64,000 nt of DNA from Acorus gramineus (lineage: Eukaryota > Streptophyta > Magnoliopsida > Acorales > Acoraceae), in assembly GCA_030737835.1 (NCBI GenBank), contig CM060857.1:12907496-12971495 (forward strand), read 5' to 3'. Made by a program: the position numbers and the translations under genes. Every line of letters starts with the position of its first letter. Position 1 is the stretch's first letter. A model generated the notes under the pieces. It saw only the letters and a program-made list of their open reading frames with translations. It had not been told where the DNA came from and did no database searches. Positions 2,505-59,146 of the stretch are shown here, in pieces.

Positions 2505-5358
2505 ATGGGGCATCTGTACGCGCTGGACTTCGATGGAGTCCTCTGCGACAGCTGCGGAGAGAGCTCCCTCTCAGCCGTCAAGGTCTTCTCTTCATTCGCT
2601 CCTCTTAATTCCATCTGTGTTTCTTCACAGACTGATTTTCTTAATGTGATTCTTCAAAAAGGCTGCGAAAATAAGGTGGCCTCAACTGTTCGACCAAGCG
2701 GACTCCGTCATGGATGGATGGATCGTCGATCAGATGCACATCGTACGTCCTCTCTTTTCCCGCCCAAATTTTGGAACCCTAACCATCTCTGCAACTCAAA
2801 TGAATGTGGATCGTGTTTGAAATGTGTAGAAACTTGGATTTGTGTATTGATGTCTCCCTGTGGATCTATTTGAACAATGGCTTTGTTATTGTGCTTTTTT
2901 TTTTTTTTTTTAGTTGAAGCACCAGATTTGGATAGTTTCTTACAGCAGCCAAGCAAATCATGGTGAACTGAATTATTTTTATTTATTTTTTAATAAAAAA
3001 ACTGTGGCCTAATTTAGTCTTTTTAAACAATGAAATTGATCTAGTAACCAAAAAAACTGACCAACTGATTTGGACCAATCACAAAAGTGATGGGATGACG
3101 AGTCCTCTTGTGATTTGTCTGGGTCAATAAATTTGTTAAATTATTGGTTACATGATTTTAGGACTCTCAGAGAAATTAATTTGTTTGATACCGTGGTTTA
3201 GTTAGAGTATACTTTGACACTTTTTTTAATGTTCAGACTGGTTCAGAAAAACTCTTGTTCGTCAAACCGTGTGTTTGGCATCTTTAGAATCGAGGTCTCC
3301 ATTTATTTTGGATGATTTTATCATATTTTATCATAATTTAAGAAGTAGCTTGAATTGTCCCTACTGCCTTCACATCTAACATATGAGTTTCTGGGTGTTT
3401 TTTTCATACCAATAATCATGATACATCTAGAAAATGATTCAAATATCTCCGTGCTTTTACCATACTTTTCTCGAATCATTCATGGATATACACTTTAGGA
3501 ATTGTGTCATTCTTGATAGATAACTAAGCCAGTATAGATAGCAATTCTACATGAATAAGAGATTTTTCATTTGTTTGTATTTTCAACTATTACCTCCATC
3601 CAAACGGGGGGTTACAGTATCAAACGGAACCCTTAATGTGACCCTACATGTATATTATATAGATAATGTTTAGTCATCTTCTTGAGAAACTGCATGTAAC
3701 AAACAGTGGTGCTTGAATTGCTTGTATGTTACTTTGATTTCTTTGCACTTTGTATTTCAAGTGACTTTAGCTATCATGGTGACAGCTCCGGCCTGTGGTG
3801 GAGACGGGATATGAGAATTTGCTGCTTGTGAGATTACTGGTGGAGATGCGAATCCCATCCGTCCAGAAGTCTTCTGTGCGTATTCGCACAATTTTCAATT
3901 CCATAGTCTTCTCTCAAACTTCTTTGCTCTCTTGCTTCACAAAACAGTTATTCAGGAGAGAATATGAAGAGCATGTTTTTCTTGTTGAAATGTTGATATC
4001 TTATATTGTACGATGATATTCCATTGACGAAGCTTGGTCCGAATTTGTAAGGTTGCAGCTGGGCTGACCGTGGAAAGGATATTGGAGAACTGGTCTTCTA
4101 TTAAACCTGTTATTATGGAAGAGTGGGGTGAAGAGAGGGGTGCTTTGGTAGACCTTTTTGGAAAAGTTAGGGATGAATGGATGGAGAAGGACTTGTCTGG
4201 CTGGATTGGGGCAAATAGGTACAAATATCGGGTTGTAGTCATTTATGGGATGTGATTTTTTGGTTCCAAAACACTTAAAAATGAGATTTTATCTAGAGTG
4301 TATTATGTGTTTTCATAGCTCAAAATTGTTTTACCAAAGGGAGATGGAAATCATGTGACCAAATGCCACTTTGAATTATCTAATCAGTTGGATTGGTCAT
4401 GCATCGACATCTCCAAAGCTTATCTGTGTACATTATGAAAAACTCTGTAGGTTTTACCCTGGCATAGCAGATGCACTGAGATTTTCAAGCTCGACACTGT
4501 ATATTGTCACTACAAAACAGGTATGTACTTCTGTCTGAGAATTTTTCATCTCATGTCCTAGTATGGTTTAACTTCTTACAATAAGCTATAGTGTTAATTT
4601 TGAGTCGCATGGATATATTCGATTCTCTTATGCAAAGCTGAATATCTGTATTTACCAATGATTGGATTGTCTGTAGGGCAGATTTGCTGATGCACTCCTA
4701 CGAGAGCTGGCTGGAATAACAATACCTCCCGACAGGATATATGGATTAGGAACTGGGTTAGCATATTTTGCATTACCTTTATCTCCATTTATTTATAATA
4801 GTAGCATAATTAGGCAGCTTTGACATCCTAGTTTTCTTATTTCCATTGTTCTCTGATTTTGTAGCCCTAAAGTAGAAGTGCTTAAACAGCTCCAAGCGAA
4901 GCCTGAACATGCAGGACTGACCCTCCAGTAAGATTTTTTTAGAAAAGGAAGTTTTAATTATGTAACCTAGACTTTGATCAAATGACTTGAAACTCAATAT
5001 GTAGCAAAAAATTTCACCATTGCACATATGGTCACTCTTCCAAAAGATCTAAACTGAAAAAAATGGCTTCCAAAACAGCTTTGTTGAAGATCGTCTCGCA
5101 ACTCTAAAGAATGTCATCAAAGAACCGGCCCTGGACGAGTGGAATTTGTATCTGGGTAACAACATGGTCTCTCTGGTTTCCTCCTCTTTCATTCCCTTTC
5201 ATGTTAGGGTTTTCTTCAGTGTGCACTGTGATAATATGTGTTTCATTGACTTCACAGGGAGATGGGGCTACAACACAGAGGGGGAAAGAGCTGAAGCACA
5301 AACAATTCCAAGAATTCAGCTGTTGGAGCTCTCTGATTTCAGTAAGAAACTGAAATAA
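2505..5358 (+). CDS. HAD-superfamily (haloacid dehalogenase-like) hydrolase, 9 exons
   Basis: Exons: 2505-2582, 2662-2742, 3786-3875, 4052-4218, 4451-4520, 4677-4756, 4865-4927, 5079-5155, 5258-5358. All junctions are GT-AG and phases match, giving 268 aa. HAD motifs are in order: DFDGV at 8-12 (nucleophile Asp8, acid/base Asp10), Thr159 in YIVTTKQ (motif II), Lys191 in GPKVEVL (motif III) and FVED at 211-214 (motif IV, metal). No transit peptide is obvious, since motif I starts at residue 8. The family hydrolyses phosphate esters, often phosphoglycolate-like substrates; the real substrate is unknown. The start is the first ATG after the GA tract. Intron 2 is over 1 kb. The intron 3 acceptor (TTTGTAAG) and exon 8 donor are the least certain junctions. 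Confidence 0.9.
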
Positions 5359-7001
5359 TATGAACAGCATTCATTATGAGATTGTGTAGTTGAACATTGG
5401 ATATGGATATGATACTGGGACCACATTGTTACATTGCATCAGATATATAGTTCATTAAAATGGCCACTATCCTATAATTTATTCACAGAAACTCCCCATA
5501 TGTTATCATCTCATTCTGGTCCACCCATTTTTATGGAAAATGTCTCATTTGCGTATCCAGTCCAAAACACAGTGCGCTTGTGATTTCATTTTTTATATAA
5601 AAATTTTATGTTTCATCTAATGAAATATGTACTTTAATGAAAGGTAAAGTAAAATATCTACTACAATGAATGGAAATATGGAATGCTATCGTTTATAGAA
5701 AATATATTTCATTTAGCACGCACGGTTCATTTCAAAAAGTGATACATCTCTCACAAAAGTCACAATCCATATGAACTCAATTAAACATGAATTCCTCTCT
5801 GAATTATTCAATAGTTTCCAAGAGTAATTACTCAATTTTATTCGACATAATGAACCATAAGATTTATTGATACCAACGTTTAAAAACAACTAAAAAAAAA
5901 AAAAGGTGAATTGCTCGAATGCCCCTTGTCCAACAACCTTTTTTTTTTACCCCTTAACTTTTTTTTATTTTTTATATACCCCTAAGAGTCTGGTCCCATT
6001 TTTTTACCCCAGTGTCACATCATATTTGATGCCTAAATTAACCCCACTCTATTTTTCCAGTTTATAGTCATATATGTGCAGTTACATAATATGTCAACTA
6101 GTTACAGAAACTTTGTCTATATTTACAAATATATCATTTTATATGTGTAAACTTATTTTTTTAGCTCATATCCATGTAAGCTAAAGAGGATGATCAACCG
6201 ATTTTCATGACACGCGTAAGTGCAAAGATGAAATTATTAGTGAAGTGGATAAGTTTTTTTTTGTCCTCAACAATTATTTGTATTGGCACTAGGTGATTTT
6301 AGACTTTGTAGAAGAGTGTTTCGTGTTATACAAGTATACAACTCGTTACCTCGTGTTCGTTATAAGAAATATATGCTTGACTATGTGACACGGATCAATA
6401 ACAGTTGATGAATCTATTTTAACGACACTTCGAGAATATATCTATAACCATTTTGTATACACTGAATGCATTTACATATGATAATGATAGGCCTTACAAT
6501 TCATAAATGTATTGTATCTATAACCATTTTATGCTTAATCATCTTTGTATACGTTGAATGCTCGTTGTAGATAACTATTAAATATCTTCAACTATATGTA
6601 TAATTTATGTATGTATCACATTATATTTATGTATTTTATAACTCTGTCTATAAAAGATATTTCAGGTATTATAAAAAATTAGAGATAAAAATAAAAATAA
6701 AACAACACTATAAAGATAAAAAAAAAAAAAAACAATTTCAGGATCAGAAAAATAAAAAAAAATTGGACTGTTGGTCAAGGGACATTCGATTAATCCACCA
6801 AAGAAAAATTATTGATAAGATATATACTATTACAATAAAAATATTGATACGTTTAATAACTTAGATGACAGAATAGAATATGGTCTCCACTGATAATTGC
6901 CTTACATCGACGAAGGGCAAAACGAAACTTAACAAAGCCGCGAAAGAGTCCACGGGACCACCGAAAGAGGAGAGGAAAAAATGAAAAAAATTGTTGTGGC
7001 G
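5359..7001. other. AT-rich intergenic region with no gene
   Basis: No coding or RNA gene is visible. The DNA is AT-rich with poly-A/poly-T runs (around 5890, 5940 and 6720). The T-run at 6982-6988 read on the minus strand (A-run on plus) probably serves as the Pol III terminator for the adjacent tRNA gene. Confidence 0.5.
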
Positions 7002-7075
7002 TGCTTTCGTTGAGAGTCGAACTCAAGACCTCCCGCTTACTAAACGGGTGCTCTAACCAACTGAGCTACGAAAGC
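7002..7075 (-). tRNA. tRNA-Thr (anticodon AGU)
   Basis: On the minus strand the 74-nt sequence folds as a standard cloverleaf. It has a 7-bp acceptor stem GCTTTCG/CGAAAGC, D arm with GTTGGTTA loop, anticodon stem CCCGT/GCGGG closing the loop TTAGTAA (anticodon AGT, inosine-modified, reading ACU/ACC/ACA), T arm TTGAG-TTCGACT-CTCAA and discriminator A at 7002. There is no intron and the 3' CCA is not encoded, as expected of a nuclear gene. A run of T on the minus strand follows within 20 bp. Confidence 0.95.
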
Positions 7076-8329
7076 TTTCTTGTTATCAAATGCCTCCGCT
7101 TTTTTTCAAGAATGCTTAATAAGGGAGAATATCCACTCTACAAGCTGTAATGCATCAGGGGTAAGAAAAAAACACAATGAAATAACACTTATTCTGCCTG
7201 AATAATAATTCTGCACCATTCCATTCTATTACCCGATTCTTGTTTGAATGTTCGCATAGACAAGAATATGGTGGGCATTTAGCACTTACTTGGATAGTGG
7301 TATAGTTGCGTAAGCTAAAAAATCATGTTTGCAAAAGAACAAGTGTACATAAGTCACCTAATTGTCAAATAGGTGCAAAAAAACTGATGGTGATATTCTA
7401 AGGTCTTCACTAAAATTGTGTTAAATTACTCGATCTTGTATAAGAGAGACTTATACATCAAATCATTTTTTTATATTTAATAAATCTTTATTCATATTAT
7501 ATTCATGATCAACCAAACAACAAAACTCCATTATCATGTTTTATGACAACTATAATTAAAAACATAACCAAAGCACAAAATGATTTATTTTTATCTATAC
7601 TAGAATAATTATTTATTTTATAACAATTTATGTCACTTCCTAACCAAGACTTAAAACTATATGCCACTTTTGATACATGATTTAGGTTGCGTTTAGTTAC
7701 ACGATTGTAAGACTTATTTTATAGAAAACTGTCTCTTTACAGCTTATGAAAAACTCAAGCTTTGAACACTTTGTAACAAAAATCTGTGTTTGTAACTTTT
7801 AACCCTAATTTTTATATTTAGAATCGAGTTTAAAAAAAAACAGCTTTCCTCAAACCCAAAAAACTACTCAAATCCATTGTCAAATGAGCCCTTATTTCTT
7901 ATTGAGAGCGCAAGATATGTACTTACATAAAAAACAGGAGCAACTACTGTATCTATTTTTTTTATATTTTATGTAACAGCATTTACTTTCTCTACCAATG
8001 ACTGAACAAATGATAATAAAAATAGTATTATATCCTCAACTGCTCAAAAGCGTTGTTGTCAAACGGAATTAGAAAATAAATTCAGTTTGGTATAATAATT
8101 ATATCAGTCAATAAATTGGAGTATCAATGGATTGGTAAAATTAAATATCAACTGCATTCCCCATTATTATTACTGCACTGCTGTAAAGTTTTCACTCCCC
8201 TAATAAAGGGATACAAGCCCACTTTTCTCAGTGAATGTCCAATTTTCCATGGGAGACAGATAATCAAGCCAGATTATAAATAAAAAGAAGACGAAGAAAC
8301 ATTGCCTATATAAATCTAGCATTCACTTG
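7076..8329. other. AT-rich intergenic region, includes aminopeptidase 3' UTR
   Basis: No gene is seen. The right part, next to 8330, should hold the 3' UTR and polyadenylation signals of the aminopeptidase gene. A weak MITE-like segment may lie at about 7685-7890. Confidence 0.4.
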
Positions 8330-11300
8330 CTAAGCAGCCAAGCTTTTGGAGGCTATCTCATACACATTCTCAGATAGCCCGTTTGCGGACATTATCTTCT
8401 GCAGTTCCACCTGACACAACACAAAAAAAAAATCTTTCGTCAAAGGCGTGAACAAGAAAGAGCAAACACTTCAGCTGTTCAGACAAACTGATTCAATCAC
8501 ATGCATGGCATGAAGAAAGGAACCATTGTTTGAGAGCACTAAAGCAATCGAAATTACCTTATGAAGAGCTTGTCGAGTCTCATCGTATCGCCCCCATCTC
8601 GAGAGGGCAGACACCAAGCGGGAGGCCACCTGCATTTCGAATGCACAAAAAGAAAGGAAGAGAAAATGCTCTCAATTAATGAAAACAAGGATTGAATAAC
8701 AGTTTTTGAAGCATGTGACTTGTAAACATGCCTGAGGATTTATTTTGTCTAATTGTAGCACCATGTCACCGAGGAATTTGTAGCCCGATCCATCCTTTGC
8801 GTGGAAGTTCACACGAGATCCACAAAATCCCCCAATGAGTGAGTAGACCTAACACTCAAAGAAAATTTGTTCACTTAACCTTCCATGCGAAACAAGGAAC
8901 ACATAGTAGAGAGCCAAAGACTGGATTTATGTATGAAATTGCGAGCACAACAGAGTTTTGTCCATGCTACGCGTTTAAAATGTGAGTTAAGAACAATTCT
9001 ATTCACAATGATTCATTTTGGGGGTAGGGGGGGGGGGTGTAACCACAAACATATCCTGTACTGGGTTTAAAAGCACAGGAAAAGGAGGAAAAATAAACTA
9101 ACCTTGTTTGGATTGCGCAGATCAAAGGAAGGATGGTTTAGCAGATTCTGGACATTCACAATATTTCCAGGAATATTAGACATTGCTTGAAGAGAGAACC
9201 ATTTGTTTACAACCTATCAAAAGAAAAGGAGACTATATTAGGGTCATCCAAGAGAAATGATTAAAAGGAAGTACTGATTCTTTAAGTTTCAGAAAGGGAA
9301 TTCACCAAATAGTTATGCTCCCACTTCTTATAGAAGTCAGCCAAGACATCATCATGGGCTTGGCCTGGATTTTGAGCTATGGCAGCAAGAGCCGCAAATT
9401 GTTCGGTCATGTTTGTGGCAGAGTGGTATTCGTGTAATGCAAGTTGGTTAAGTTCCGGTTCATCCAAATAAGCAATATAGGCTGCACAACAAAATAGAGT
9501 TCAGTTTGTTCTTCTAGTCGGTTAAATCTTCAAATCTACAAATAAAAAAATATACCAAGTGCAGTATTCTTTAAAGCTCGCCTGGCCATGTTATGATGGT
9601 TGAACACATAAGGCTCAGATCTTGTGTTATTCTTCACCTACAAGAACCAACAGACAAAATAGATTCCTATATCCATGAATACTCATATCCCATATCTCAC
9701 ATTGAGGGCACCGAAACACAGGTACAGAAGTTGCTGGACTTACTGTGCTGACAAACTCCATTTTCAGCTGGAGAGCGAGCTGTTTTCTTATGAAACTCCG
9801 AACTGCATGAACGGCATCTGGATCAGCAACTTCCATCAAGTCCATGATTTCACCTTCACCGGGCAAAGTAACAGCCAGAGCGACGAAATCCTGGTAAATG
9901 TGAAACAATACAAAGCAATCAGTTGATATTTACAGGCCAAATGAAACAAAATGATAAAGAACAATATTTACTTTGTCCAAAGTGGAATCACAGAGAATGC
10001 TTCTGATACCCTCCACAAACTTTGGGTTCAGAACTAGTGGCTTGTTTTGCTGGAAATCAGCAACTAGAGTTAGCATCAACTTCCTTGCCAAGATTTGTCC
10101 TGCCTCCCAACTGACACATGAAACTGCCCACATAAGCTCATAGATGTGAATCTCAAATTATTCCCAGGTAGAATCTATTCAAGATACAGACCGATTAAAC
10201 TCATCAGAATCATGAGCCAGAAGGAAATATAAGTCACTGTCTGTGAGATCAGAATCGAGACGAACAGGTGAGCTGTAACCCCGGAGAAGGGAAGGTACTG
10301 GACGTTCAGTGATGTCAGAAAACACAAACTCTTCTTCCTTCTGCTTGGTATGCAAAAACATTGGCATCAATCACAAGAAACCCCCTTAAATTTTTAAAAT
10401 TTCTCCATTAGATATAAGAATCAATTATCAATGACCAATTAAACAAGATTTACTTGGTACCCAATGAACTGAAAGTTCTCCAAAGATCTTGAGAACTGAC
10501 CTTTGTCACACGCAAGACTACTGTTGAGACAGGTTGTCCATTGCTCACCACTGACTGCAGCAATCCTTCTTGATACATGGAGGTAAGAGGCATGTCCTTA
10601 CCTTTTGAATCAAGGAGGCCAACAGCCACTGCTATAAACATGGGTTCTTTCACAGGTTGCCCAGGCGTTGGCGGAACTTCTTGACTGAAGTATCCATAGA
10701 AGCAAAAAATGTTGTAGTGGATATTTATGTGAATTTGTGCATGTGAAATAGAATGGAAGATACTTCATCAGAGAACATCATATTAAGAGAAAACATGAAT
10801 TAATACAAAAATAGAACAAAATACAGGGATTTTTTTGCTAAAAGGGTCGTGGTTCTTTCACACACAAGAGTTACAATTCCACATTCATAATGTCTCAACC
10901 AAGTCAAATTCTTCATTCTTGGGCTACATATACATGAACAGAGATAAAACATATACCTGAATTTCAAAGAATATGTGCGGGAATCGGGATTGTACGAGGA
11001 AGTAACTTTCACGCGAGGTGTTCCTGCTTGAGAGTACCTGTAATTATAATTTCAAAACAATGAATCCCTATCCACAAGGAAAAAACATGACATGTTTAGA
11101 GCATACCAAAGCAAGAAATTGGAAAAATCGGCATCATTAGCATCACGCATTGCAGCAAAGAAATCTTCACATGTAACAGCCTGTCCATCATGTCTTTTAA
11201 AGTAGAGATCCATTCCCTGAAATACAACAAGGGATTCTGCTAGTTAAGAAATGTCACTACGCGGTAGTTTGATGTCTAACATACAATGTTTCCCAAATAT

Positions 11301-22542: not shown

Positions 22543-22690
22543 TACTTTTTGTCCATAAAATAATGTCTCAATCGAATAACGCTGGACGTTTTGTCAATGA
22601 AATAATATCTCAATCGAATAACACTGAACTTTTTGTCTATGAAATAATGTCTCAATCGAATAAAGCTGGACTTTTTATCTACGAATCAAA
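22543..22690. repeat. Three tandem copies of an approximately 42-bp unit
   Basis: The word AAATAATGTCTCAATCGAAT (second copy AAATAATATCTC...) recurs at about 22558, 22600 and 22642, followed each time by A-rich sequence and CTGGAC/CTGAAC plus TTTTGTC. A fourth, degraded unit may follow at about 22680. Confidence 0.8.
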
Positions 22691-22817
22691 ATCTTGATTA
22701 AAAAACATAAGATTTATAAATCTACGAGTATGGATATTTTATCCATGAAAATCTTAATCGACTACATAACAAAATCCTTCAAAAAAAAAAGAAAAAAGAA
22801 AAGACAAGAGAGAAACG

Positions 22818-23241
22818 TTTGTATTGACCTTTTTCTGTTGGTGGGTCCTATATTTCTATATTATTATATGTATGTACAAGAGTAAGTTTTTGTGTACTTG
22901 TCCAAACCCATTTTTATCGTGTAATGTTTGTGTTTTTACCTCCCGAATTGTTGAAAATAAATAAATATTAGTATTTTAATTTATTTAAAAATTATATTAT
23001 TTCACTCAAATTATTTTATTGATATAAAAATAACACAAATGTTTATCATCTCTCAAGACTAAGAAGATTTAATGATAAATTATTTTTTTCACATTTCATT
23101 CGAATCTTATTTTATATAATAAATAAACAATAATAAATTATTAAAATAACTAACAACACAATTAATTAAATATATATAAAAAATGATATATGTTTAAGCC
23201 ATTTATACTGAAATAATAATTAAAATACCACCCAATGCCTC
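22818..23241 (+). repeat. Left copy of the long direct repeat flanking the Mutator-like element
   Basis: This segment begins TTTGTATTGACCTTTTTC and ends ACCACCCAATGCCTC. It is nearly identical to 29967-30399, differing by a handful of substitutions and a 9-bp indel. It directly abuts the left terminal inverted repeat. Confidence 0.95.
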
Positions 23242-23242
23242 G

Positions 23243-24314
23243 GGTTCGGAACCTCTGTTCCGAAATAACAGAGTTCCTCTGTTTCGACCAACCGGAAGGC
23301 GACGCGTGGCAAGCTTTTCACGTGCTCTCACGTGATGGCAACTTCACAGACTCCCGACGTCTCCTTCCGTCTGCGACCAATCCGTCTACAATCGCTCTCT
23401 CTATCCTCCCTCAAAACAAACCACAAACCCTAACCCCTCTTTCGAAACCACCGACTGCCTCCAACCACCAAGCAACAACCGCAGACCGCCCTTGTCCGAC
23501 GAGCACCGAGCAGCAACCGCCGACCGCCCCTGTCCCCCTTCCGAACCCTGTGATCAAAATCCGAAGGTATTCTTATGTTCCTTTGTTAATAATGCTGTCT
23601 TGGGGTTTGGGTGTTTGGGTTGAGGTGGGCATTCAAGAGGGGAAGGACTGTGGAGGTGGCCAGGGTTGACGAGGTAGTCGAGAATCCATGATTGTATTTT
23701 GGGTTGGAACAGATGAACAAGAAGAGAGAGAGAAAGAGAGGGGTAGGTTGGTTGAGATTGTTAGTGTCTGAAGTAGAGTAGGAGTTGATGGGTTTTGGGG
23801 TTTTAGAGAGAGTGAAAAACAGAGGGGAGAATGGTGTGTGCAGCAGAAGAGGAGAGATGTTGAGGAGAAGACATTCTTGGCTCTGAAGTTTTACTTAAAT
23901 TTTAATTTTTTTTTTTTAAGCTTGATGAATTACACTGTTTTGGTGGGTTGATGTAGTCTGATTCTGTGTTTATGGGTGATTTTCAATGTGTTTGCCTTTG
24001 GTTGATCCAAACAAAAATGTGTACTAATTCTGCGAAATGTTCATTGTATATAAAAAAAACTCACCTTTTAGGTTATAATAGAACAGCCAGTTTGGGTTGT
24101 TGAGTAATTACTCCTTCGAGTATTGGGTGAGTTAGACAAGATTGTGTAGTTGGTACAAGTGAAAAAAAAATTCAGATTGAGCTTGAGGAATTACACTGTT
24201 TTGGTGGGTGTGATTTGTGGGTGTCTTAATATATGGTTCTTTGTTTATGAGTGATTTTCAAAATGTGTGCCTTTTGTTGATCTAGATAAATGTGCATTCT
24301 TTGATCTTGTTTCT
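23243..24314 (+). repeat. Left terminal inverted repeat with promoter and 5' UTR exon
   Basis: It matches the complement of 28880-29965 across its whole length, with small indels. A splice donor ATCCGAAG/gtattc at 23577 probably pairs with the acceptor cttaaaag at 24523, giving a 5' UTR intron of about 950 bp upstream of the transposase ATG. The G-box-like CACGTG and TCACGTGA words at 23318-23337 are candidate promoter elements. Confidence 0.85.
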
Positions 24315-24541
24315 TTTTTCAAGTATCCATGTGTCTATGTGTGTGTGTATTTGGAGATTATTTTTTGTGGAGTTAATTTAATTTGTTGTAGATGATATAT
24401 ATTTTTTGTGATTTGATTTTTATATTTTTGTGGCTTTTAGATCTAATCTGAAATTTTTTTAAGAGTTATTTAATTTCATGCCAATATATAATTATGTTTT
24501 TAATTATGTCTTTTTCTTAAAAGGTGAGTATTGATATCAAT

Positions 24542-26913
24542 ATGGAAGGTGACAATGAGTGTATTGATGAATGTAATGATAATGGTGTGCCTGAAGTTGG
24601 TATGGCATTCGATTCTGAAGAGAGTGCATATCAATTTTACAACGCATATGCAAGATCAGTTGGATTTAGCATCCGAAGAAGTGGCGTATCAAAGTCCAAT
24701 GGTATAGTGACAAAGCGAAAATTTTGTTGTTCTAAAGAAGGGGTGAAAGGGGTTGATAAGCGAAAAGTCTTGCACCCGCAGCCGGATACAAGAACAGGAT
24801 GTGAGGCACATATAGTTATCATTTATCAGTCTTCTGGTGCGTATTGTGTCACTAAATTTGAACAAAACCACAATCATGATCTTGTAACAACTCCTTTGCG
24901 TCACAATTTGAGGTCTCACAGAAAAATTGAAAAGGCTCAAGCTGCTCAGGTTGATATTATAGATGGGTCAGGATTGGCACCAAAAACCGTTATGGATTTG
25001 ATGAGTGGACAAGTTGGAGGCAGAAGGAATCTTGGTTTTGTTCTAAATGATGTGAAGTCTTACTTGCGCACTAAAAGAGAAAGTAGAATGGAAAATGGTA
25101 TTGCGGGTGCTCTTTTTCAGTATTTCAACAACAAGCAACAGCAAGATCCATCATTCTTTTACTCAATGCAACTAGATGCCGATGAACAAATAACTAATGT
25201 GTTTTGGGCCGATTCTAGGTCTATTGTCGATTATGCATATTATGGTGATGTAATTTGTTTCGACACGACCTATCGCACAAATAATCATGGGAGGCCATTT
25301 GCACCATTCGTTGGAGTGAATAATCATAGACAAACAATTATTTTTGGTGGTGCATTGCTTTATGATGAGACAGCCGACTCATTTATTTGGTTATTTGAAA
25401 CTTTTCTTCAGGCAATGTCAGGGAGACGTCCGAAGACTATTCTAACAGATCAATCAGCGGCGATGGCCAAAGCTATTTTAGTTGTCCTACCAGAGACTCA
25501 TCATCGGCTATGTCTATGGCACTTGACCCAGAATGCAACAAAACATCTTGGACAACTTTATGCTATCGAAGGCTTCAGAAGTTCCTTCTATGCTTGTATT
25601 TATGGGTACGAGACGGAGGATGAATTTCTATATGCCTGGGATAACATGCTTGAGAAATACAATCTTCGAGATAATAAATGGCTTCAACAAACTTTTGTTG
25701 AGAAGGAGAAATGGGCTCTAGTGTATGGGAGAGACACATTCTGCGCGGATATGAAGAGTACACAACGTAGTGAAAGCTTCAATGCTCTTCTGAGACGCTA
25801 CCTGAACTCAAAGCATGATCCATTGCGTTTCTTTCAGCATTTTGATAGGGTTATGGATGATCGGCGTGAAAGTGAATTGAGTGCTGATTTCAAGATGATG
25901 AATACAGTCCCGGTAATTCCATTTAATGCTTTGATGATGACATGTGTCACAAAGGTTTACACGCCCGAGATATTTGAGTTATTTCAAGCAGAGTATGGAA
26001 AATTTTTGAATTGTTCTATCTACATTCATCGGGAGGTGGGACATATGATAGAGTACAAAGTTCGTAGAGATTGTGGCAGTGAAAGAACCATTTTTTATAA
26101 TTCATCTAATGAGATGGTCACTTGTAGCTGTAAAAAATTTGAATTTATGGGTATCCAGTGCTGTCATGTTCTAAAAGTTCTTGATCACAGAAATATTAAG
26201 GAGCTTCCACAACAATATATCTTGAAGAGGTGGACAAGATATGCAAAATCCGGTGTTGTGCATGATATGTGTTCTTCTTCAGTACAAGTTGATGCTATTT
26301 CTGATTTGGGAAGACGATTTCAACAATTAAGTCATGGTCTCATTCAAGTGGCATCCAAGGCATCTGAAACAGATCATTCAACAGAGCTACTTAAACGTCG
26401 CACAAAAGAGATAATGGAGGAGGTTGAGATAGATTTGCGGACATCATCTCAAAATTTGCAAGATGACAATGAGCAACATGAGGTAGAAAGCAATCTGAAC
26501 AATGAGATTGCTAAAGGCTTTAAAAGAAGAGGAAAGAAGACTGTGGGAGGGAAGCCTCAAAAAAGATGGATCGGCGCGTTGGAGAAGGGATCACGAGGTC
26601 AAAGCTCTCAAACTCAACGTGTGTCCCAACATGCGTCCCATATTGCGATTGAGAGCCCTCAAACATTTGCGCAAGGAATGAGAGCTCCCATAGTTGGGAA
26701 CTACGATAGCAGTCAAGGAATGACTTCAATGACTCAATTGCTTCAGGTACCCTTACTGTTTTTTTTTTGTCGTGGATGGAATTTATATTTCATATATACT
26801 TCAATGATGTTAAATGAATTCTATCGCAGGCACAGGAATCCCTTTTTTATCCTACTCAAATGAGTGAAACATCAAATTTTTCTGAAGAATGGAGGAGGAG
26901 CACAGATTTTTGA
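24542..26913 (+). CDS. FAR1-related MULE transposase (762 aa)
   Basis: Coding exons are 24542-26746 and 26830-26913 (GT-AG intron after CTTCAG; the last exon ends in TGA). The ATG at 24542 (MEGDNECIDE) is the first after the probable acceptor at 24523. Domains in order: FAR1-type WRKY-GCM1 zinc finger about 20-115 (Cys and HNHD residues), MULE/DDE transposase about 200-335 with Asp241 in FDTTY and Asp303 in LTDQS plus a Glu in the ETEDEF segment near 358-362, and SWIM zinc finger with Cys528, Cys530, Cys540 and His542. The tail is basic and low-complexity. It would bind the TIRs and cut the DNA. FHY3/FAR1 transcription factors derive from this family, but here the gene lies between TIRs, so it is a transposon gene, not a domesticated one. 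Confidence 0.93.
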
Positions 26914-28248
26914 TTGTCACGTGTAATGTTAATTTTTAAAATACACTAGTATACTTGATTTCATTTAATGAGTTCATCACAAAAATTAACATAGATAAAT
27001 TTATATTACAGGTACTAGATGGAATTTGGAGTCTTACACAATTCAAGGTTGTCTGGACTGCTTTTGTCTCTTGGAGTTGCATCAATTTCCATATTCAGTG
27101 GAGTGGAGTTGTCCTCAAACATTATAGTGTGTGTGTTCTGCATTTTGCGATTATATTATGTATTGTGGAATTCTGATTATATTATGTATTGTGGATTTCT
27201 GAATGTAGTGTGTTGAATTTCAAAATGTAATGTGTTGAATTTGAGGTGAAGAATTTGGGGGGGGGGGGGGGTTTGGCATAGATGGTTTTTCTCAGCTTTC
27301 TTATTTTCATCGTTGCACTGTGATATGTGCACTGGTTTGAGTTTGATCTTGTTTGAAATTGTAATTTAAACCACACATCCGAGCAGAAAAACTTCTAACA
27401 AGAATACACCATATCTTGGTTTTAAGTTAGACTGTTTGTGTCCATTTCTGAGACCAGGAAATGGAGACATGTCGCTACAACTTTATATAAGTGGTTCTGT
27501 GGTGCCATGTCTAAAGCAGGCAAGTATCCTTGTCAGCTCAACTCTTATAAGTGCATGCTAGTATAACTCTTTTATAAATTAGTAATTTGAGCAAATATTT
27601 TAAAAATGTAAAATTATGAAGTATCTAAGCTAATGTTGTTCAAAATCCATTTGGAAAAACTTCAGATAGAAATACGAAAGTTACATTTCATGAAGGAAGT
27701 TTTTTAGGTTCAGTGTTGCATGAGCACGAGGGAAAGACTGTGGCAGTTCAACACTCGATGCAAGTGCCATGTGTGGATTAGATATTTGAATGCCTCTTAC
27801 ATGATGACATTTGTAAAGTGTGAATGCATGTATAGTTAGATACATTTTTTGAATGTAGAACTGCAAAATAGGAAAAATCTATAAATGAAGTACGCTAAAG
27901 TTGAAATGACAAAGATATGAATGTTGTATGATGATTGATGTCTTTGAATTTTACAGCTTACTTAGATAACTAACACATGCTATGTGCAATTCCATTTGTC
28001 CCCCTGGTGTTATTGACATTTATATTCAAAGATCAACATCGTTAAGTTAAAAAGTTGGCAATGATACACACTCTGTTATGCTTCCTCTGTTATGCTTCCA
28101 GAAACATCAAAATGAAACATTCATACAAATACTAATTCAAATACAAACTTTCATAACCATACACGTTCCTTCAAACACAGATGTCCACAACCATAACCTA
28201 TTGTCCCAAATCAAAATTACAACTCCAAGGCATCAAAACCAACCAAAA
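26914..28248. other. Transposon interior between the two convergent genes
   Basis: AT-rich sequence holding the 3' UTR of the transposase and of the convergent gene. A G-run (15 G) lies near 27260. No further coding region is supported. A further downstream intron/exon of the transposase transcript (acceptor-like TATATTACAG near 27011) cannot be excluded but would be non-coding. Confidence 0.4.
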
Positions 28249-28665
28249 TTACATGTGATAAAATATGAGGATGAGAATTGTGAGAATCAGGACCAACAAG
28301 AAAATAGTACAACCGAACATAGCAAGTATGATATGAGTGATAGGCAAAACAACTGATGTAGGTGGGCATTCATGTGGATGTTGAGCTTGTACTACCTCTC
28401 TTTGCAGTGGATCAGTTTGGGAAATCATGCATGTAGGTGCTGAGCTTGAACTACCTCTCTTTGAAGAGGTCAGCAATGGAGTGGAATGGTCAGTAGTGGA
28501 GTGGACGGCATGCTTGGTAACAAATTCATTGGCCTCCTCAAGATTTTGGAAGCCCCTGAATATTGGCTCTCGAAACTCATGTATTTGTGCTTTGCATTCA
28601 GGCCAATTCGTATACACGCCCGGGGTCCTGCCTATTGCAACTGCGTAATACTTAAATTTTGCCAT
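28249..28665 (-). CDS. RNase H1 N-terminal (viroplasmin-like) domain protein with C-terminal membrane segment
   Basis: This is the second gene of the transposon, 138 aa, on the minus strand. Residues 4-49 fit the RNase H1 N-terminal/caulimovirus-VI-type fold: KYYAVAIGRTPGVY, a Trp in NWPECKAQI, then FRGFQNLEEANEF. That small domain binds RNA-DNA hybrids or double-stranded RNA and sits before RNase H in eukaryotic RNase H1. No RNase H catalytic domain follows. A Ser/Thr-rich linker (55-105) leads to a strongly hydrophobic stretch about 107-135 (IILAMF...LILIF), ending three residues before the stop, like a tail anchor. ATG at 28665 lies four bases after the acceptor ttgtag. The 5' UTR intron would run 28670-29650 to a donor in the right TIR. 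Function in transposition is unknown. Confidence 0.75.
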   Translation of the reverse strand: MAKFKYYAVAIGRTPGVYTNWPECKAQIHEFREPIFRGFQNLEEANEFVTKHAVHSTTDHSTPLLTSSKRGSSSSAPTCMISQTDPLQREVVQAQHPHECPPTSVVLPITHIILAMFGCTIFLLVLILTILILIFYHM

Positions 28666-28879
28666 GAACCTACAATAAAACATATCATTCATCTCATATC
28701 ATTCCAAAAATTAGTACATGACTCATACATGAACCAACTCAAATACTGAATCCACATGAGCATACATAAAAAACCCAATGAACCAAACTATCAAAAATTA
28801 AAGTTCTGGGAGATCTACATAGAAACCATTTAGTTATAACCTAAAATAAGTCTTATAAAAAAATACAATGAACATTTGC

Positions 28880-29965
28880 AGAAACAAGATCAAAGAATGC
28901 ACATTTATCTAGATCAACAAAAGGCACACATTTTGAAAATCACTCATAAACAAAGAACCATATATTAAGACACCCACAAATCACACCCACCAAAACAGTG
29001 TAATTCCTCAAGCTCAATCTGAATTTTTTTTTCACTTGTACCAACTACACAATCTTGTCTAACTCACCCAATACTCGAAGGAGTAATTACTCAACAACCC
29101 AAACTGGCTGTTCTATTATAACCTAAAAGGTGAGTTTTTTTTATATACAATGAACATTTCACAGAATTAGTACACATTTTTGTTTGGATCAACCAAAGGC
29201 AAACACATTGAAAATCACCCATAAACACAGAATCAGACTACATCAACCCACCAAAACAGTGTAATTCATCAAGCTTAAAAAAAAAAAAATTAAAATTTAA
29301 GTAAAACTTCAGAGCCAAGAATGTCTTCTCCTCAACATCTCTCCTCTTCTGCTGCACACACCATTCTCCCCTCTGTTTTTATTTTATCTCCCCTCTGTTT
29401 TTCACTCTCTCTAAAACCCCAAAACCCATCAACTCCTACTCTACTTCAGACACTAACAATCTCAACCAACCTACCCCTCTCTTTCTCTCTCTCTTCTTGT
29501 TCATCTGTTCCAACCCAAAATACAATCATGGATTCTCGACTACCTCGTCAACCCTGGCCACCTCCACAGTCCTTCCCCTCTTGAATGCCCACCTCAACCC
29601 AAACACCCAAACCCCAAGACAGCATTATTAACAAAGGAACATAAGAATACCTTCGGATTTTGATCACAGGGTTCGGAAGGGGGACAGGGGCGGTCGGCGG
29701 TTGCTGCTCGGTGCTCGTCGGACAAGGGCGGTCTGCGGTTGTTGCTTGGTGGTTGGAGGCAGTCGGTGGTTTCGAAAGAGGGGTTAGGGTTTGTGGTTTG
29801 TTTTGAGGGAGGATAGAGAGAGCGATTGTAGACGGTTGTGATCACAGACGGAAGGAGTCTGTGAAGTTGCCATCACGTGAGAGCACGTGATAAACTTGCC
29901 ACGTGTCGTCTTCCTATTAGTCGGAACAGAGAAACTCTGTTATTTCGGAACAGAGGTTCCGAACC
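28880..29965 (-). repeat. Right terminal inverted repeat with mirrored promoter and 5' UTR exon
   Basis: Inverted copy of the left TIR. On the minus strand it contains the same ATCCGAAG/gtattc donor (gt at 29649-29650), which would splice to the acceptor at 28670 in front of the second gene. It has an extra ~15-bp TTTTTATTTTATCTCC-type insertion near 29375 relative to the left copy. Confidence 0.85.
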
Positions 29966-29966
29966 A

Positions 29967-30399
29967 TTTGTATTTACCTTTTTCTGTTGGTGGGTCCTAT
30001 ATTTCTATATTATTATATGTATGTACAAGAGTAAGTTTTTGTGTTCTTGTCCAAACCCATTTTTATCGTGTAATGTTTGTGTTTTTACCTCCCGAATTGT
30101 TGAAAATAAATAAATATTAGTATTTTAACTTATTTAAAAATTATGTTATTTCATTCAAATTATTTTATTAATATAAAAATAACACAAATGTCAAATTATG
30201 TTATCATCTCTCAAGACTAAGAAGATTTAATGATAAATTATTTTTTTCACATTTCATTCGAATCTTATTTTATATAATAAATAAACAATAATAAATTATT
30301 AAAATAACTAACAACACAATTAATTAAATATATATAAAAAATGATATATGTTTAAGCCATTTATACTGAAATAATAATTAAAATACCACCCAATGCCTC
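29967..30399 (+). repeat. Right copy of the long direct repeat flanking the Mutator-like element
   Basis: It begins TTTGTATTTACCTTTTTC and ends ACCACCCAATGCCTC, then continues into the upstream region of the TMEM115-like gene. It matches 22818-23241 in the same orientation. Confidence 0.95.
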
Positions 30400-45850: not shown

Positions 45851-46190
45851 GAGGTTTGACATAGAGTGAAGTATCATAAAAAATATGTTCCTGATTTGCC
45901 TGTCTTTATTCAAATATAAAAATTTGTTTTTTTTTCTTCGGTTAGTTTTTTTTTTTTTCTTGACCGAATCTTTCCTATACGTAGACAGTAAAACTCAAAC
46001 TCAAATGAACGGTAAAATTTGAACCCAACTATCTAAATCTTTACACTAAAAATAGGATATCTCTCTCATCCTACTAAAAATAGGTTTAATTTCAAATATA
46101 AAAGTTCTTTTTTAAGGAAGAAAAATCTCTTAGAAAATCTGTCAAAATCACAAATGATCTTTGGAAAATTATCAAAGCTCCGAACATCAT

Positions 46191-46372
46191 TGTTGATAGA
46201 ATAAATGAAATGAAATTCTTCTTATTGTATTAAAAGAGCCGAATGTTCTATTTATAAATAAACAAGAAAAACCTAAAATATCTAAAAGAAAATTAAAAAA
46301 ATTAGAAAACTAATAATATCATAATAATGATAATAAAGAGTCAATGTTCTCATGTTAATGACTCTTTAACGA
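46191..46372 (-). mobile_element. Diverged LTR (minus orientation), left unit
   Basis: On the minus strand it reads GTTAAAGAGTCATTAACATG at one end and TTTATTCTATCAACA at the other. It includes the interior words GATATTATTAGTTTTC and TATTTATAAATAGAAC-like sequence in common with the LTR at 54288-54477. It is therefore a relative of the copia-type LTR, repeated at 59147-59318. Confidence 0.55.
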
Positions 46373-46415
46373 CCATATTGTAAAAAAAGTTAATAAATCA
46401 ACATTGTCACTGTAA

Positions 46416-47117
46416 GGGTGTGTTTATGCTACATGGAAAGTGAGAAAAAAATGTGGGAAAGTAAAAACTTTTACTTTGACCACATAAAAACCAGTTGTTT
46501 GTGTCAAACAAAAAGTAAGAAAAAACTTTTTCTTACTTTTCCTCTGTTATTTTGTCTTATTAGAAGAGAAGGAAAAAAAAAAAATTCTCACCAAGGAGAA
46601 AGAAAAGTGAGGGAAAGTGAGTTTACTTTTTTGGGTTTAAATATTAAATGTTTAGTGATATTTAATATTTTTATTTGTTTTTATTTTTTATTTTATAATA
46701 AAATAATAAAAGTATTTATTTAATTTTTTTTTATTCATTATGTGACATGTCCTTGTTGATTGTCTTTTAATTTTTATTTATTTAAGAATATTTGATTGAA
46801 AAGAGATTTCTTTGATATTATATTATGTGACATGTCCAAACAATATAATTTTTTATCACTTTCTCTGGTAACATAAACAATACATTTCATTTTCGATCAT
46901 TTCATCATAAAGTATAAAAAACAATTTTTATTTTCCGTCATTTTCCATCACATACGCAAATAACAGTTTTTATTTTTCATCAATTTCCTTAACATACACA
47001 AATAATATATAAATTGATCAAAGGGAAAATAATTTATTTTCCATCACTTTCCCAGCTTTGACTCAAATTCTTTTACTTTCTTTCATTTTCCCTTTGAGAT
47101 TATGCACAAACACACCC
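46416..47117. mobile_element. PIF/Harbinger-type element in left duplication unit
   Basis: It starts GGGTGTGTTTATGCTACATG and the complement of its right end starts GGGTGTGTTTGTGCATAATC. TAA flanks both ends as a 3-bp target duplication. Interior is AT-rich with repeated (T)TTCAT(C/T) words and no transposase. The same insertion is present in the right unit at 59362-60035, so it predates the duplication. Confidence 0.8.
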
Positions 47118-48000
47118 TAAATAACTAGATACGTGGTTAAGCTTAACAATAAATACACAATATATTATGAAATACTTTGTAGTCATTTTAACTGGTATCC
47201 CTCACTCCCTCGCCAGCAAAAATTGCCTATGGCATTACCTCTCGTTCTCTGTCTCTCTGTCTCTCGTCTACCCGTATTTGAACATCATTCGGGTCTTCGA
47301 ACATACACAATGTCATTCATAACTATAAAATATCCCCACAATGATAATACCAAGAAGAAGATTGGTCACCAACTCCTCCCAATCCCAGTATCATACATTG
47401 ATTTCTTAAATGTCAAAAATTAATAACAGTGTACGGATCGTAGTTGAATGTTAATTTCGTATTATGTAGTCTGGTATACAATAGCTTAACCTAGTATGAT
47501 AGTATTTACTATATTAGAAAGAAAATATATACAAGCATGCATGAATCAATATATTCATGCGATCGTTTTTAACAAAGATAATGTTAGTAATAATGTAGTG
47601 TTTTAATTTTTATATTATTTTAATTTTTATATTATAAAATAAAATATTTACAAAAAATGAATACACTAATTTATATTATCAATCATAATATTTTAGATAT
47701 TTTTGTAAAGTTGCAAACCAACCTCCAAAAAAAATCTAACCAACCCAAATCGGTAGAAATTAAAAAAAAGTATATATATGTTTATTTTTAACAAATCGAT
47801 TCGATTCGACGTAGTTCAAGTTAATCAAACAATATCAATTCTGTTTGATTTTTGAGATTTTTGTTCAGTTTGCGGTTTGATTTAGTTTTTAAATTAAATG
47901 TGATATAATTTGGTTTAGTTTAAATTTATAAAAATCAGAACTAAACTGATCGAATTGCACCCTTAACATACAGAGATGGAGATGGGGCTACAAAAAGAAC
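47118..48000. other. Upstream spacer of the left fibrillarin copy
   Basis: AT-rich sequence with no supported gene. The short open frame at 47133-47423 is conserved in the right unit only because the whole region is duplicated. Confidence 0.4.
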
Positions 48001-48019
48001 ATCACTGAACACCAAATAG

Positions 48020-48260
48020 TGGGCTGTCTTCAATGGGCCTGTATTAGGGACTGCAACGATCATACGTCAGATGGGTTACACGGATCCGAAGCCCAAAATA
48101 GGAAACAGAGTAAACTAGCAGACCCGATTCTCTTGGACGGCTCTGATTTGTCGACGACGGACGCCCCGACAGTGAAAAAGAAAAAGAAGAGGTAAACCCT
48201 AAAATCGTTTAAAACCCTAAACCCGCACAAGCTCTTCTATATAACAATCTCTACAACGGC
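48020..48260 (+). promoter_or_regulatory. Fibrillarin promoter (left copy): telo-boxes, site II motifs, TATA
   Basis: Two telo-boxes AAACCCTAA lie at 48194-48202 and 48212-48220, followed by TATATAA at 48238-48244, about 62 bp before the ATG. Upstream are TGGGCT and TGGGCC motifs (about 48021-48040), the site II elements known to act with telo-boxes in plant ribosome-biogenesis genes. The right copy has the same motifs. Confidence 0.8.
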
Positions 48261-48305
48261 GTCGTCAAAAATCTCTCTCTCTCTCTCTAAGCCCAGATCG
48301 CACGG

Positions 48306-50278
48306 ATGAGGCCCCCGAGAGGTAAAGTTTCGTCTCTTCGATCTCCTCTTTCACTTTGGAATCTGGTTTTGTAAATCTTCTGATTCAATCGAAGCTTGTG
48401 TTTTTAGAGTTTTCCACCACTCAAAGCGCACGAAAATGATCTTGATAGTTGTTTTTGGGTGGGTGAAATGTAGGGTTTTGAGATTATCTCATCAATATCT
48501 GTTGATGATTCTATTTTTATATTTTTTGATCGAAAAACTTTCAACGGAGCATAAAATACTACAGAAATAACACACGAGAAGCTTCTTTTTGATATGTTTC
48601 TTCTACAGGTGCTGGAGGTCGTGGTGGTGGCGGATTCAGAGGTCGGAGTGATGGAGGTAGGGGAAGGGGAAGAGGAGGAGGTGGTAGAGGTGGATTCGAA
48701 GGTCGAGGTGGTGGCGGGAGAGGCCGAGGCGGGCCAGGAGGCGGTGGAAGGGGTCGTGGTGGCGGAGGGAGAGGCCGTGGCGGTGGAGGGATGAAGGGAG
48801 GGAGCAAGGTTGTCGTGGTGCCCCACCGTCTCGAGGGGATCTTCTTGGCTAAGGGCAAGGAAGACGCCCTCTGCACGAAGAACATGGCCGTTGGGGAATC
48901 TGTTTATGGAGAGAAGAGGGTTTCTGTGCAGGTGACGATCTCGCATGATTTGGTTTCTCTGTTTTTGCATTTTAATTTTGTGTGGAGGATCTTATTTGTA
49001 TATATGTATATCATCTGATGTTAGTGTGCGCTTAGTCAAGTAAAAATCATGGTTTTTAAAAGTTGAAATTTAAATTATGGTTTTGTTATATAAAAAAAAA
49101 AGAAAATGGCTTTTGATTTTTTTTATACTTGATGTCTTTTTCCAGTGTGTTGTTGGATAGAAATTTAAATTTGTTGAATCACTTTGTATCAGTAAGTGAT
49201 TACGAGCTTACCATTGCTGCCCAAGCACAACACGTACTGGATTGGACTGATTTTTGTACTTGGTGATTGATGATATGATGTGGAACAAAAACCGAACCAT
49301 CCTTTTGGTAGGATGGTAAAGATACCCTGTCCTCTGTGAGGGGACTTGTGTTCAAATCTTACCATCTGCTGATAGGTGAAGATTTCACTAAGAAAAGATA
49401 CTTACCAATAAAAAAAAGTGGAACAAAAGAATATGTTTTGTAAAGATGATATGTAAGTTATCATTTTGTGCTTATATATGTGCTCTTGCAGTTTTCTTTT
49501 TATATGTTAAGATATTCATGTTTGATGTGCATTTTTAAATAAGTTGTTATCATTTGATGATGGATGCATAAATTAAATGTATTTATTGTTCAAATTCTTT
49601 CAGAATGAAGAAGGTACAAAGGTTGAGTACAGGGTTTGGAATCCATTTCGATCAAAGCTGGCCGCAGCAATAGTAAATGGTGTTGACAATTGTTGGATTG
49701 TAAGCTCACTGTCACTTCTTCTGTTCTTTTTATGTTATTCATGTCATTTTGTTCTCAGATCAGACTTATACAATTTCAATGATGGTTGCCATGCTAGTTA
49801 TGTTGTCACTTTTTTCCACTTAGTTTTCTGTTCTCAACATTTTTTTATTTTATCGAATGTCTGATAAGAATATAATTTTGATTTCTTCAGTTATTTTATA
49901 TATTATTCATTCTTTTTATCATGATAGAAACCTGGTGCAAAGGTTCTCTATCTCGGTGCTGCATCTGGGACCACTGTTTCTCATGTTTCGGACATTGTTG
50001 GACCTGTAAGTTGATTGGATCTGTAATGGCCACTACTTGTTCTTGCATCATACAAAACAATTTTAATATGAATTTATCCATCCTCTCAATTTTTTTGGCA
50101 GACGGGAATGGTCTATGCGGTGGAATTTTCACATAGAAGTGGTAGGGACTTGGTCAATATGGCAAAAAAGCGAACAAATGTCATACCCATCATTGAGGAT
50201 GCTAGGCATCCTGCTAAGTACCGAATGTTGGTCGGCATGGTTGATGTTGTTTTCTCTGATGTTGCTCAGCCAGACCAG
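48306..50278 (+). pseudogene. Fibrillarin, left copy: first five exons only
   Basis: Exons: 48306-48321, 48609-48931, 49604-49699, 49928-50005, 50102-50278, all GT-AG and in phase, giving 230 codons. Fibrillarin is the nucleolar 2'-O-methyltransferase of box C/D snoRNPs. Residues 5-68 form the RGG (GAR) domain. The methyltransferase part starts at [12 protein letters not shown] and includes SAM motif [15 protein letters not shown] and [14 protein letters not shown]. The normal protein has about 80 more residues (an ARILALNAS-type start), and no such exon is visible in the 3.4 kb between the exon 5 donor at 50279 and the next duplicated block. It is probably a truncated 5' duplicate, though all present exons are open. 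Confidence 0.75.
49297..49420 (+). mobile_element. Possible tRNA-derived SINE in fibrillarin intron 2
   Basis: TGGTAAAGATACCCTGTCCT followed about 35 bp later by TGTGTTCAAATCTTACC resembles Pol III A and B boxes of plant SINEs, and the unit ends near a short A-rich stretch. The same sequence is in the right copy at 62763-62886. Confidence 0.4.
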
Positions 50279-58809: not shown

Positions 58810-58993
58810 TGACACAGAGTGAAGTATCATAAAAAATATGTTCCTGATTTGCCTGTCTTTATTCAAATATAAAATTTTTTTTTTTTGTTTTTTTTTTTTT
58901 TTCTTGACCGAGAATCTTTCCTATACGCTGACAGTAAAACTCAAACTCAAATGAACGGTAAAATTTGAACCCAACTATCTAAATCTTTACACT
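58810..58993 (+). repeat. Right direct repeat flanking the nested LTR insertion
   Basis: From TGACACAGAGTGAAGTATC to AAATCTTTACACT, matching 54096-54287. It is also the left edge of the right fibrillarin duplication unit. Confidence 0.9.
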
Positions 58994-59146
58994 AAAAATA
59001 GGATATCTCTCTCATCCTACTAAAAATAGGTTTAATTTCAAATATAAAAGTTCTTTTTTAAGGAAGAAAAATCTCTTAGAAAATTTGTCAAAATCACAAA
59101 TGATCTTCGTAAAATTGTCAAAGCTCCGAACATCACTGTTGATAGA

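Follow-up and report, generated by a model that had tools for sequence, protein, structure and literature searches.

What is the gene for a small RNase H1-type protein with a predicted membrane anchor doing inside a plant DNA transposon? The question is raised by a 64,000-nt stretch of the Acorus gramineus genome (GenBank assembly GCA_030737835.1, contig CM060857.1, positions 12,907,496–12,971,495, forward strand), which we refer to as the window and number from its first letter. Positions 23243–29965 of the window form a single FAR1-type Mutator-like element (MULE), with two convergent genes between inverted arms: a transposase gene and a second gene, for which we coined the name RHN-TA. That RHN-TA is a genuine accessory gene of the transposon is close to certain. 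A fuller explanation, namely, a selected accessory gene for a tail-anchored nucleic-acid-binding protein that acts as a silencing suppressor or tether, has in our view about an even chance of being right. The element is laid out as follows.

23243–24314, forward strand: left terminal inverted repeat (TIR), 1072 bp, beginning GGTTCGGAACCTCTGTT (self-alignment, end comparison)
24542–26746, forward strand: transposase exon 1, with FAR1 zinc finger, MULE DDE domain and SWIM finger (Pfam, reading frame)
26747–26829, forward strand: probable GT...AG intron in the transposase gene (reading of the sequence, frame change in sister copies)
26830–26913, forward strand: probable transposase exon 2, AQESLFYPTQMSETSNFSEEWRRSTDF plus stop (reading of the sequence)
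28249–28665, reverse strand: RHN-TA, 138 aa plus stop, coding part 28252–28665 (open reading frame, Pfam, copy comparison)
28255–28341, reverse strand: C-terminal hydrophobic helix of RHN-TA, residues 109–137, predicted tail anchor (AlphaFold2, Kyte–Doolittle)
28522–28653, reverse strand: RNase H1 N-terminal or hybrid-binding domain (HBD) of RHN-TA (PF01693; 3bsu by sequence and fold)
28880–29965, reverse strand: right TIR, 1086 bp (self-alignment, end comparison)

RHN-TA consists of a nucleic-acid-binding type of head and a hydrophobic tail. By both profile and fold, the head belongs to the PF01693 family. Residues 5–48 match the Pfam profile with E = 3.6e-19 (69.2 bits; cut-off 21), and an AlphaFold2 model has a mean predicted local distance difference test score of 89–97 per ten residues over residues 1–50, followed by a low-confidence linker and the helix at 109–137. 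Foldseek matched the model to five chains of 3bsu, the human RNase H1 HBD solved on RNA/DNA, with target TM scores of 0.86–0.94, a root-mean-square deviation of 0.4–0.5 Å and 42%–43% identity over 44–46 columns. Pfam found no RNase H catalytic domain in the protein, which an upstream in-frame ATG would lengthen to 147 aa (28249–28692). Mean Kyte–Doolittle hydropathy over 19 residues peaks at 3.08, with three residues beyond that segment. All eight aligned RHN-TA proteins combine the head with a hydrophobic C-terminal helix and have Pro-Leu-Leu in the linker between them, and their 19-residue maxima of 2.8–3.6 are typical for a membrane anchor. In nine proteins, three to nine residues follow the best 19-residue segment, and outside the C-terminal part no segment exceeds 1.6. 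Such a layout, in which the only hydrophobic helix lies near the C terminus and is followed by just a few residues, is that of a tail anchor; in a further fragment, L040 (see below), one residue follows. Head and tail are retained together in proteins 32%–71% identical to the RHN-TA of the window.

The transposase open reading frame (ORF; 24524–26863, forward strand, first in-frame ATG at 24542) encodes a MULE-type DDE transposase, with matches to PF10551 (MULE; E = 1.6e-29), PF03101 (FAR1; 4.2e-23) and PF04434 (SWIM; 5.1e-7). A 3' intron at 26747–26829 is probable, and the C terminus would then read ...LLQ-AQESLFYPTQMSETSNFSEEWRRSTDF; tblastn switches frame at residue 739–740 in many sister copies. 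The TIRs have the length expected of a MULE, and the two arms are 95.7% identical over 1097 aligned columns. A first-pass annotation, made from the letters alone, had described a two-gene MULE with ∼1.1-kb inverted repeats and convergent genes, an intact transposase with FAR1, DDE and SWIM parts, and a membrane-tailed RNase H1 N-domain partner to be compared with PF01693. The repeats, the gene layout, the open frame with its three domains, the PF01693 match and, as a prediction, the tail all hold up; the transposase has to be corrected for the probable 3' intron.

Is RHN-TA a regular part of this transposon? We searched one genome (398.6 Mb, 137 contigs), which has 136 PF01693 matches, and retrieved 10 kb of surrounding sequence for each of the 20 top matches besides the window's own (loci are given L numbers). 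Eighteen of these 20 lie convergent to a transposase of the window's MULE family, whole or in pieces, and the other two led to carriers of another superfamily, described below. The same association emerges from the transposase side, in 61 places scored among 1665 candidates (61 of 64 rows were kept, three continuation fragments being left out). A PF01693 match was found within 8 kb of 24 out of 27 places with a transposase identity of at least 88%, convergent in 24 out of 24, and of none of the 34 places below 88% (Fisher p = 5e-14; chance expectation ∼0.005 matches per place; the 88% split was set by eye from the identity values). The three close places without a match are C4:12577343, C1:22218666 and C54:3343260. 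These genome-wide assignments are based on proximity, with TIRs and target site duplications (TSDs) checked in a subset.

We read 20 MULE copies (the window, L009–L026 and L032). In 17 of them the gene pair is flanked by inverted arms; no arms were found for L016, L017 and L025. An exact TSD of at least 9 bp abuts the TIR in 10 of the 15 family copies with inspected ends, window included (examples are AACGATCAC, GGTAAGAGG and CCCTTTACA), where a MULE would be expected to leave 8–11 bp; there is none in the window, L010, L013 and L018, and L019 is ambiguous owing to a run of G. The 138 residues of RHN-TA are free of stops and gaps in 18 of the 20 copies (L025 has one stop; L032 has a gapped, shortened match), and transposase copies are frequently cut or frame-broken. 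Identity to the window in the 19 other copies is 97.3%–99.3% for RHN-TA and 95.7%–99.3% for the transposase, over the stretch matched.

The substitution pattern indicates that RHN-TA is under purifying selection in these MULE copies. Among 14 distinct sequences from 19 copies (the frame-shifted L032 was left out) there were 15 synonymous and 14 nonsynonymous changes, with 77% expected to be nonsynonymous (binomial p = 6e-4); the single stop of L025 was tallied as nonsynonymous here and skipped in pairwise ratios. The pooled ratio of nonsynonymous to synonymous differences (pN/pS) was 0.21 overall, 0.34 outside the domain and 0.07 within it, the last value being biased because the copies were located by their PF01693 domain. 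The first-pass annotation had proposed to look for repeated co-occurrence of the two genes and had treated a lone second gene or a neutral Ka/Ks as grounds for giving up its reading. The genome shows the co-occurrence, and neither of the two adverse outcomes is what we see. The roles that it put forward for the second gene, silencing evasion, R-loop binding or transport, stay conjectural.

RHN-TA is not specific to MULEs: The gene family occurs in PIF/Harbinger elements too, which the first-pass annotation had not noticed, and our initial expectation of a single MULE family was overturned by the loci L027 and L028. In L028, an RHN-TA 53% identical to the window's is convergent to a DDE_Tnp_4 transposase (PF13359, E = 5.4e-20) and is accompanied by a Myb/SANT ORF (PF12776, 4.5e-14; 1.3e-19 in the relative L027). 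The element (2521–9325) is bounded by short TIRs GGCTACGTTTGG / GGCTCCGTTTGG with TAA on both sides, and both edges fall within ∼5 bp of the points at which L027 ceases to match. L028 is thus a PIF/Harbinger element by its transposase, its Myb/SANT ORF and its short TIRs with a 3-bp TSD. L027 lacks the transposase part, and its own flanks give no matching TSD; it is a deletion derivative of a Harbinger element, without the DDE gene but still with RHN-TA and a Myb/SANT ORF. Close to L027 there is an ArfGAP-like coding stretch (PF01412, slightly below cut-off).

Two more Harbinger families carry the gene. The second is represented by the copies L029 and L034 (the L029 RHN-TA is 36% identical to the window's), whose transposases are, in part, 70% and 69% identical to that of L028. 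L034 has candidate ends GGCTCCGTTTGG / GGGTCCGTTTGG, each flanked by TTA; the right one is unconfirmed by a second copy. In the third family (copies L030 and L035; 32% identical), the two genes share a strand, with RHN-TA downstream of the transposase. One end of L030/L035 was seen; the far ends of L029 and of L030/L035 were not found in the fetched DNA. Myb/SANT-like ORFs in L029 with L033, in L034, in L030 and in L035 were judged by eye only.

Orientation is mostly constant within a Harbinger family. For L035-type transposases, 147 of 150 rows were used, after merging one pair and dropping two continuation rows. Of the 40 places with at least 84% identity, 38 had a PF01693 match no more than 8 kb away, all downstream on the same strand at a median of 1134 bp. 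Such a match was present at five of 20 places with 44%–71% identity, all downstream, and at seven of 87 below 44%, all convergent, several being L029-type places. L028-type transposases (additionally filtered at 57% identity and >450 bp) had a match at 13 of 45 places, 11 convergent, one divergent and one upstream. The L028-type list started from 95 of 155 matches, those left out being mostly second pieces of the same copies. Sorted by neighbour, with a limit of 8 kb, the 136 PF01693 matches include 58 near a listed PIF/Harbinger transposase and 24 near a listed MULE transposase. This distribution suggests a helper gene common to unrelated transposons of two superfamilies. The remaining 54 have no listed transposase within 8 kb, an upper bound since the transposase lists are incomplete; among them, the DNA retrieved for L016 and L023 does contain MULE transposase sequence, and L027 derives from L028 by deletion.

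Locus L031 holds an intact RHN-TA gene (4740–5144, reverse strand; 71% identical to the window's), whose similarity to the MULE gene spans the coding sequence and ends there. We had expected it inside a MULE, and no transposase match in its 10 kb supports that: No convincing MULE or Harbinger transposase was found there, the best candidate being 32 residues of the L028 transposase (E = 0.05). L031 may be a further type of carrier or a domesticated copy.

Some more distant members of the MULE family have a different gene in the convergent slot, which is also a finding beyond the first-pass annotation. At C5:15191345 (transposase 83% identical), the gene L038 976–1497 (reverse strand) encodes a protein whose GRF zinc finger (PF06839, E = 1.3e-8) is joined through an EEPLL linker to a transmembrane (TM)-type helix at the C terminus. 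At C7:14407387 (87%), L040 1–363 (forward strand) shows, as read by eye, a GRF-like part interrupted by an apparent intron, then charged residues and finally a hydrophobic helix at the C terminus; this gene is convergent to the transposase at ∼2.6 kb. A GRF match (57 such matches among 150 scored of 304 candidates) was found within 8 kb of nine of the 34 distant places, all convergent, versus none of the 27 close places (Fisher p = 0.003); 25 of the 34 distant places have neither a PF01693 nor a GRF match. The MULE clade thus seems to have a slot for a nucleic-acid-binding head on a membrane-type tail, with the head varying by subfamily. A role as transposon helpers may extend to plant GRF-TM genes as a whole.

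The closest database relatives of both proteins come from the same genus. Searches returned two proteins for the RHN-TA of the window and one for the GRF protein, all from Acorus calamus, with best matches of 89% identity over 68% of the query and 88% over 69%, respectively. A further search gave 27 proteins, of which P0001–P0005 are from A. calamus and the other named ones are of RNase H1 type or generic PF01693 proteins, including matches from Stylosanthes (P0024), Candida (P0025) and Desulfamplus (P0027). No close relative outside Acorus was found in this word-based protein search, which is insensitive, so absence elsewhere is weakly indicated. One A. calamus protein, P0002, combines a different N terminus, a near-exact RHN-TA hydrophobic helix and a different end, which could be a gene-model artefact or a tail capture. 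A full-length tree joins L031 to the MULE proteins (82/94) and L027/L028 to that set (92/98), though none of its branches attains the tool's starred level; in a domain tree, Stylosanthes P0024 falls inside the same open group (81/71).

How might such a protein serve its transposon? PF01693 domains bind RNA:DNA hybrids and double-stranded RNA (dsRNA), and GRF fingers elsewhere bind single-stranded DNA. The tail of RHN-TA would be inserted in the endoplasmic reticulum (ER) or nuclear envelope, with the head toward the cytosol or nucleoplasm, where it would bind the element's own RNA:DNA hybrids or dsRNA, which convergent genes can make, to the element's benefit. The most likely route would be that these nucleic acids are kept from the small-RNA silencing machinery of the host; alternatively, transcribed or R-loop-bearing copies might be tethered at the nuclear periphery or envelope. 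Since the transposases differ, RHN-TA most likely acts on something shared, be it transcripts, transcribed DNA or the host response, and, as a protein that would target nucleic acid generally and need no contact with the transposase, it could be of use to unrelated transposons. Both heads would fit an R-loop, the HBD on the RNA:DNA hybrid and the GRF finger on the single-stranded DNA. We consider the silencing-suppressor or tether mechanism plausible, at slightly less than an even chance. A broader proposal, which we regard as tentative and rather doubtful, is an interchangeable slot in at least two superfamilies, whose tail-anchored HBD or GRF proteins would hold the element's R-loops or dsRNA at a membrane, so shield the element from small-RNA silencing, and move between unrelated transposons.

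Several observations weigh against this explanation. Aligned to the human HBD, W43 and F58 correspond to W21 and F36 of the window's RHN-TA, but the position of K60, which we take, with the human numbering and residue roles, to be the second of two lysines contacting the hybrid, is G38 and is glycine in all eight aligned proteins, so hybrid binding may be weakened. In two of the Harbinger sets, most places have no PF01693 match (32 of 45 L028-type places; 15 of 20 L035-type places at 44%–71% identity), and the gene is therefore not essential to the superfamily. Selection is not established for the three Harbinger pairs, in which RHN-TA has nine synonymous and 12 nonsynonymous differences (pN/pS 0.40). 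The GRF slot at L038 and L040 is defined by proximity and orientation rather than by enclosing TIRs. When each tail was compared with the GRF tail, the observed score was reached by 151 of 2000 shuffles for the window, 600 for L031, 270 for L030, 25 for L029 and two for L028. Homology of HBD and GRF tails is accordingly suggestive for L028 only, and the window's tail is not demonstrably homologous; this test does not suffice to show that a TM tail persisted through exchanges of the head. Genome-wide counts refer to the PF01693 domain, the tail having been read in fetched copies only; some of the 54 matches without a listed transposase may be free-standing genes; and a single genome was covered.

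Among the alternatives, the one that survives best, although we think it improbable, is a structural transposition factor that acts with the transposase or the excised DNA in repair, strand exchange or reintegration, its tail being a protein-interaction helix. MuDR also has two ORFs, and its mudrB is given a suggested role in integration, for which it is apparently required, in the excerpt available from PMC6446971; GRF and HBD heads would moreover suit transposition intermediates. A factor of this kind fits poorly with a gene common to two transposase superfamilies and with a C-terminal helix whose hydropathy is that of a membrane anchor.

Quite unlikely, in our judgment, is a transport factor that ferries transcripts or transposase-DNA complexes via the nuclear envelope or ER membranes. 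The predicted tail anchor and the nucleic-acid head would suit the task, and a cut-and-paste element presumably depends on mRNA export and transposase import; yet other MULEs and Harbingers are not known to require a helper of this kind, and it is the Myb/SANT protein that is usually held responsible for import in Harbingers.

We give very little weight to RHN-TA as a functionless passenger, a host RNase H1 gene fragment captured in the manner of a Pack-MULE, despite host gene fragments being common in MULEs according to excerpts of PMC6446971 and PMC13317346. A Pack-MULE passenger is a captured fragment without selection in an element without transposase, whereas here the transposase frame is open and RHN-TA is under selection. 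We rejected this reading as largely refuted by that selection and by the fixed slot (24 of 27 close places); similar genes also lie beside Harbinger transposases, with head and tail kept together despite their divergence. Finally, a host gene family near which transposons land through target preference, for which one might cite the 54 of 136 matches lacking a listed transposase, has a negligible chance and was rejected, as it is contradicted by the element boundaries: Gene and transposase share the inverted arms in 17 of 20 MULE copies, inside TSDs where present, the gene lies inside the L028 element, and each family has mostly one orientation. A selected accessory gene for a tail-anchored nucleic-acid-binding protein is the explanation that we prefer.

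Accessory genes in MULEs have precedents. Maize MuDR is a MULE of similar layout, having long TIRs and a convergent gene pair in which the second member encodes a small protein; the element described here differs in its FAR1-type transposase and in having a similar second gene in Harbinger elements, and we know of no HBD or C-terminal TM segment in mudrB. The Arabidopsis VANDAL/Hiun (vanA, vanB, vanC) and KIU/Ulp1 elements are also MULEs with accessory genes. To our knowledge, VANC has no HBD, GRF head or tail anchor, a distinction drawn by description and not by sequence. Excerpts of the literature list mudrB, mutB and vanB/vanC (PMC6446971) and Ulp1/KIU (PMC13317346) as extra ORFs of MULEs, and describe VANC of VANDAL as an anti-silencing factor and sequence-specific DNA-binding protein (PMC10398659).

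L028 resembles Ping/Pong-type PIF/Harbinger elements in its DDE_Tnp_4 transposase, Myb/SANT ORF, short TIRs and 3-bp TAA TSD. Standard elements of this superfamily have two ORFs, whereas the carriers described here have RHN-TA as a third. With human and yeast RNase H1 (3bsu, 1qhk), RHN-TA shares the PF01693 fold but has a low-confidence linker and C-terminal hydrophobic helix instead of the catalytic domain. Caulimovirus P6 (viroplasmin/TAV) contains PF01693 and suppresses RNA silencing; it is a larger multidomain viral protein, likened here by description and not by sequence, and has no C-terminal TM segment that we know of. The Helitron HELPO1.3 of Pleurotus ostreatus is also a DNA transposon bearing a PF01693 protein (capE, presented as a captured viral-like gene), but it is a fungal rolling-circle element, and the excerpt of PMC4289320 mentions no TM tail. 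We found no report, in the open-licence full-text literature, of PF01693 or GRF genes with a membrane anchor as accessory genes of MULEs or Harbingers. What is known, then, is that MULEs have accessory genes; new are one occurring in two superfamilies and a type of protein new to both.

The window copy is unusual at its borders. In place of a 9-bp TSD, ∼430 bp of flank is duplicated on either side.

22812–23241, forward strand: flank duplication, left copy (self-alignment, genome search)
29966–30399, forward strand: flank duplication, right copy (self-alignment, genome search)

The two copies are identical in 422 of 439 columns, with one 9-bp gap, and over the final 199 bp. The genome has no other full-length copy of this flank, the remaining matches being short pieces. 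The arrangement resembles a 430-bp target duplication in place of 9 bp, and we found no mechanism for it. A tandem repeat with a 42-bp period (22544–22707) lies to its left. Sister-copy TIRs mostly start with GGGATCGG or GGGATGGG, followed by AACCTCTGTTT. The outer TIR of the window matches 16 of the 19 other copies (79%–91% identity over 62–220 bp), and its inner part (28880–29297) has no match in any of the 19. TIR arms within one copy (L009–L026, L032) are often near-identical, yet the window's inner TIR goes unmatched among copies whose genes are 96%–99% identical, as though TIR interiors had been repeatedly replaced. Elsewhere in the window, a segmental repeat (45857–50523 / 58810–64000, ∼13 kb apart; 98% identity over 2945 columns and 92% over 1780) contains near-identical ORFs at 48404–48970 and 61909–62436.

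If the proposed role is correct, membranes would have a part in the coexistence of plant DNA transposons with host silencing, and plant genes annotated as "ribonuclease H1 N-terminal" or "GRF-type" may partly be transposon helpers. The role would be directly testable with one small protein.

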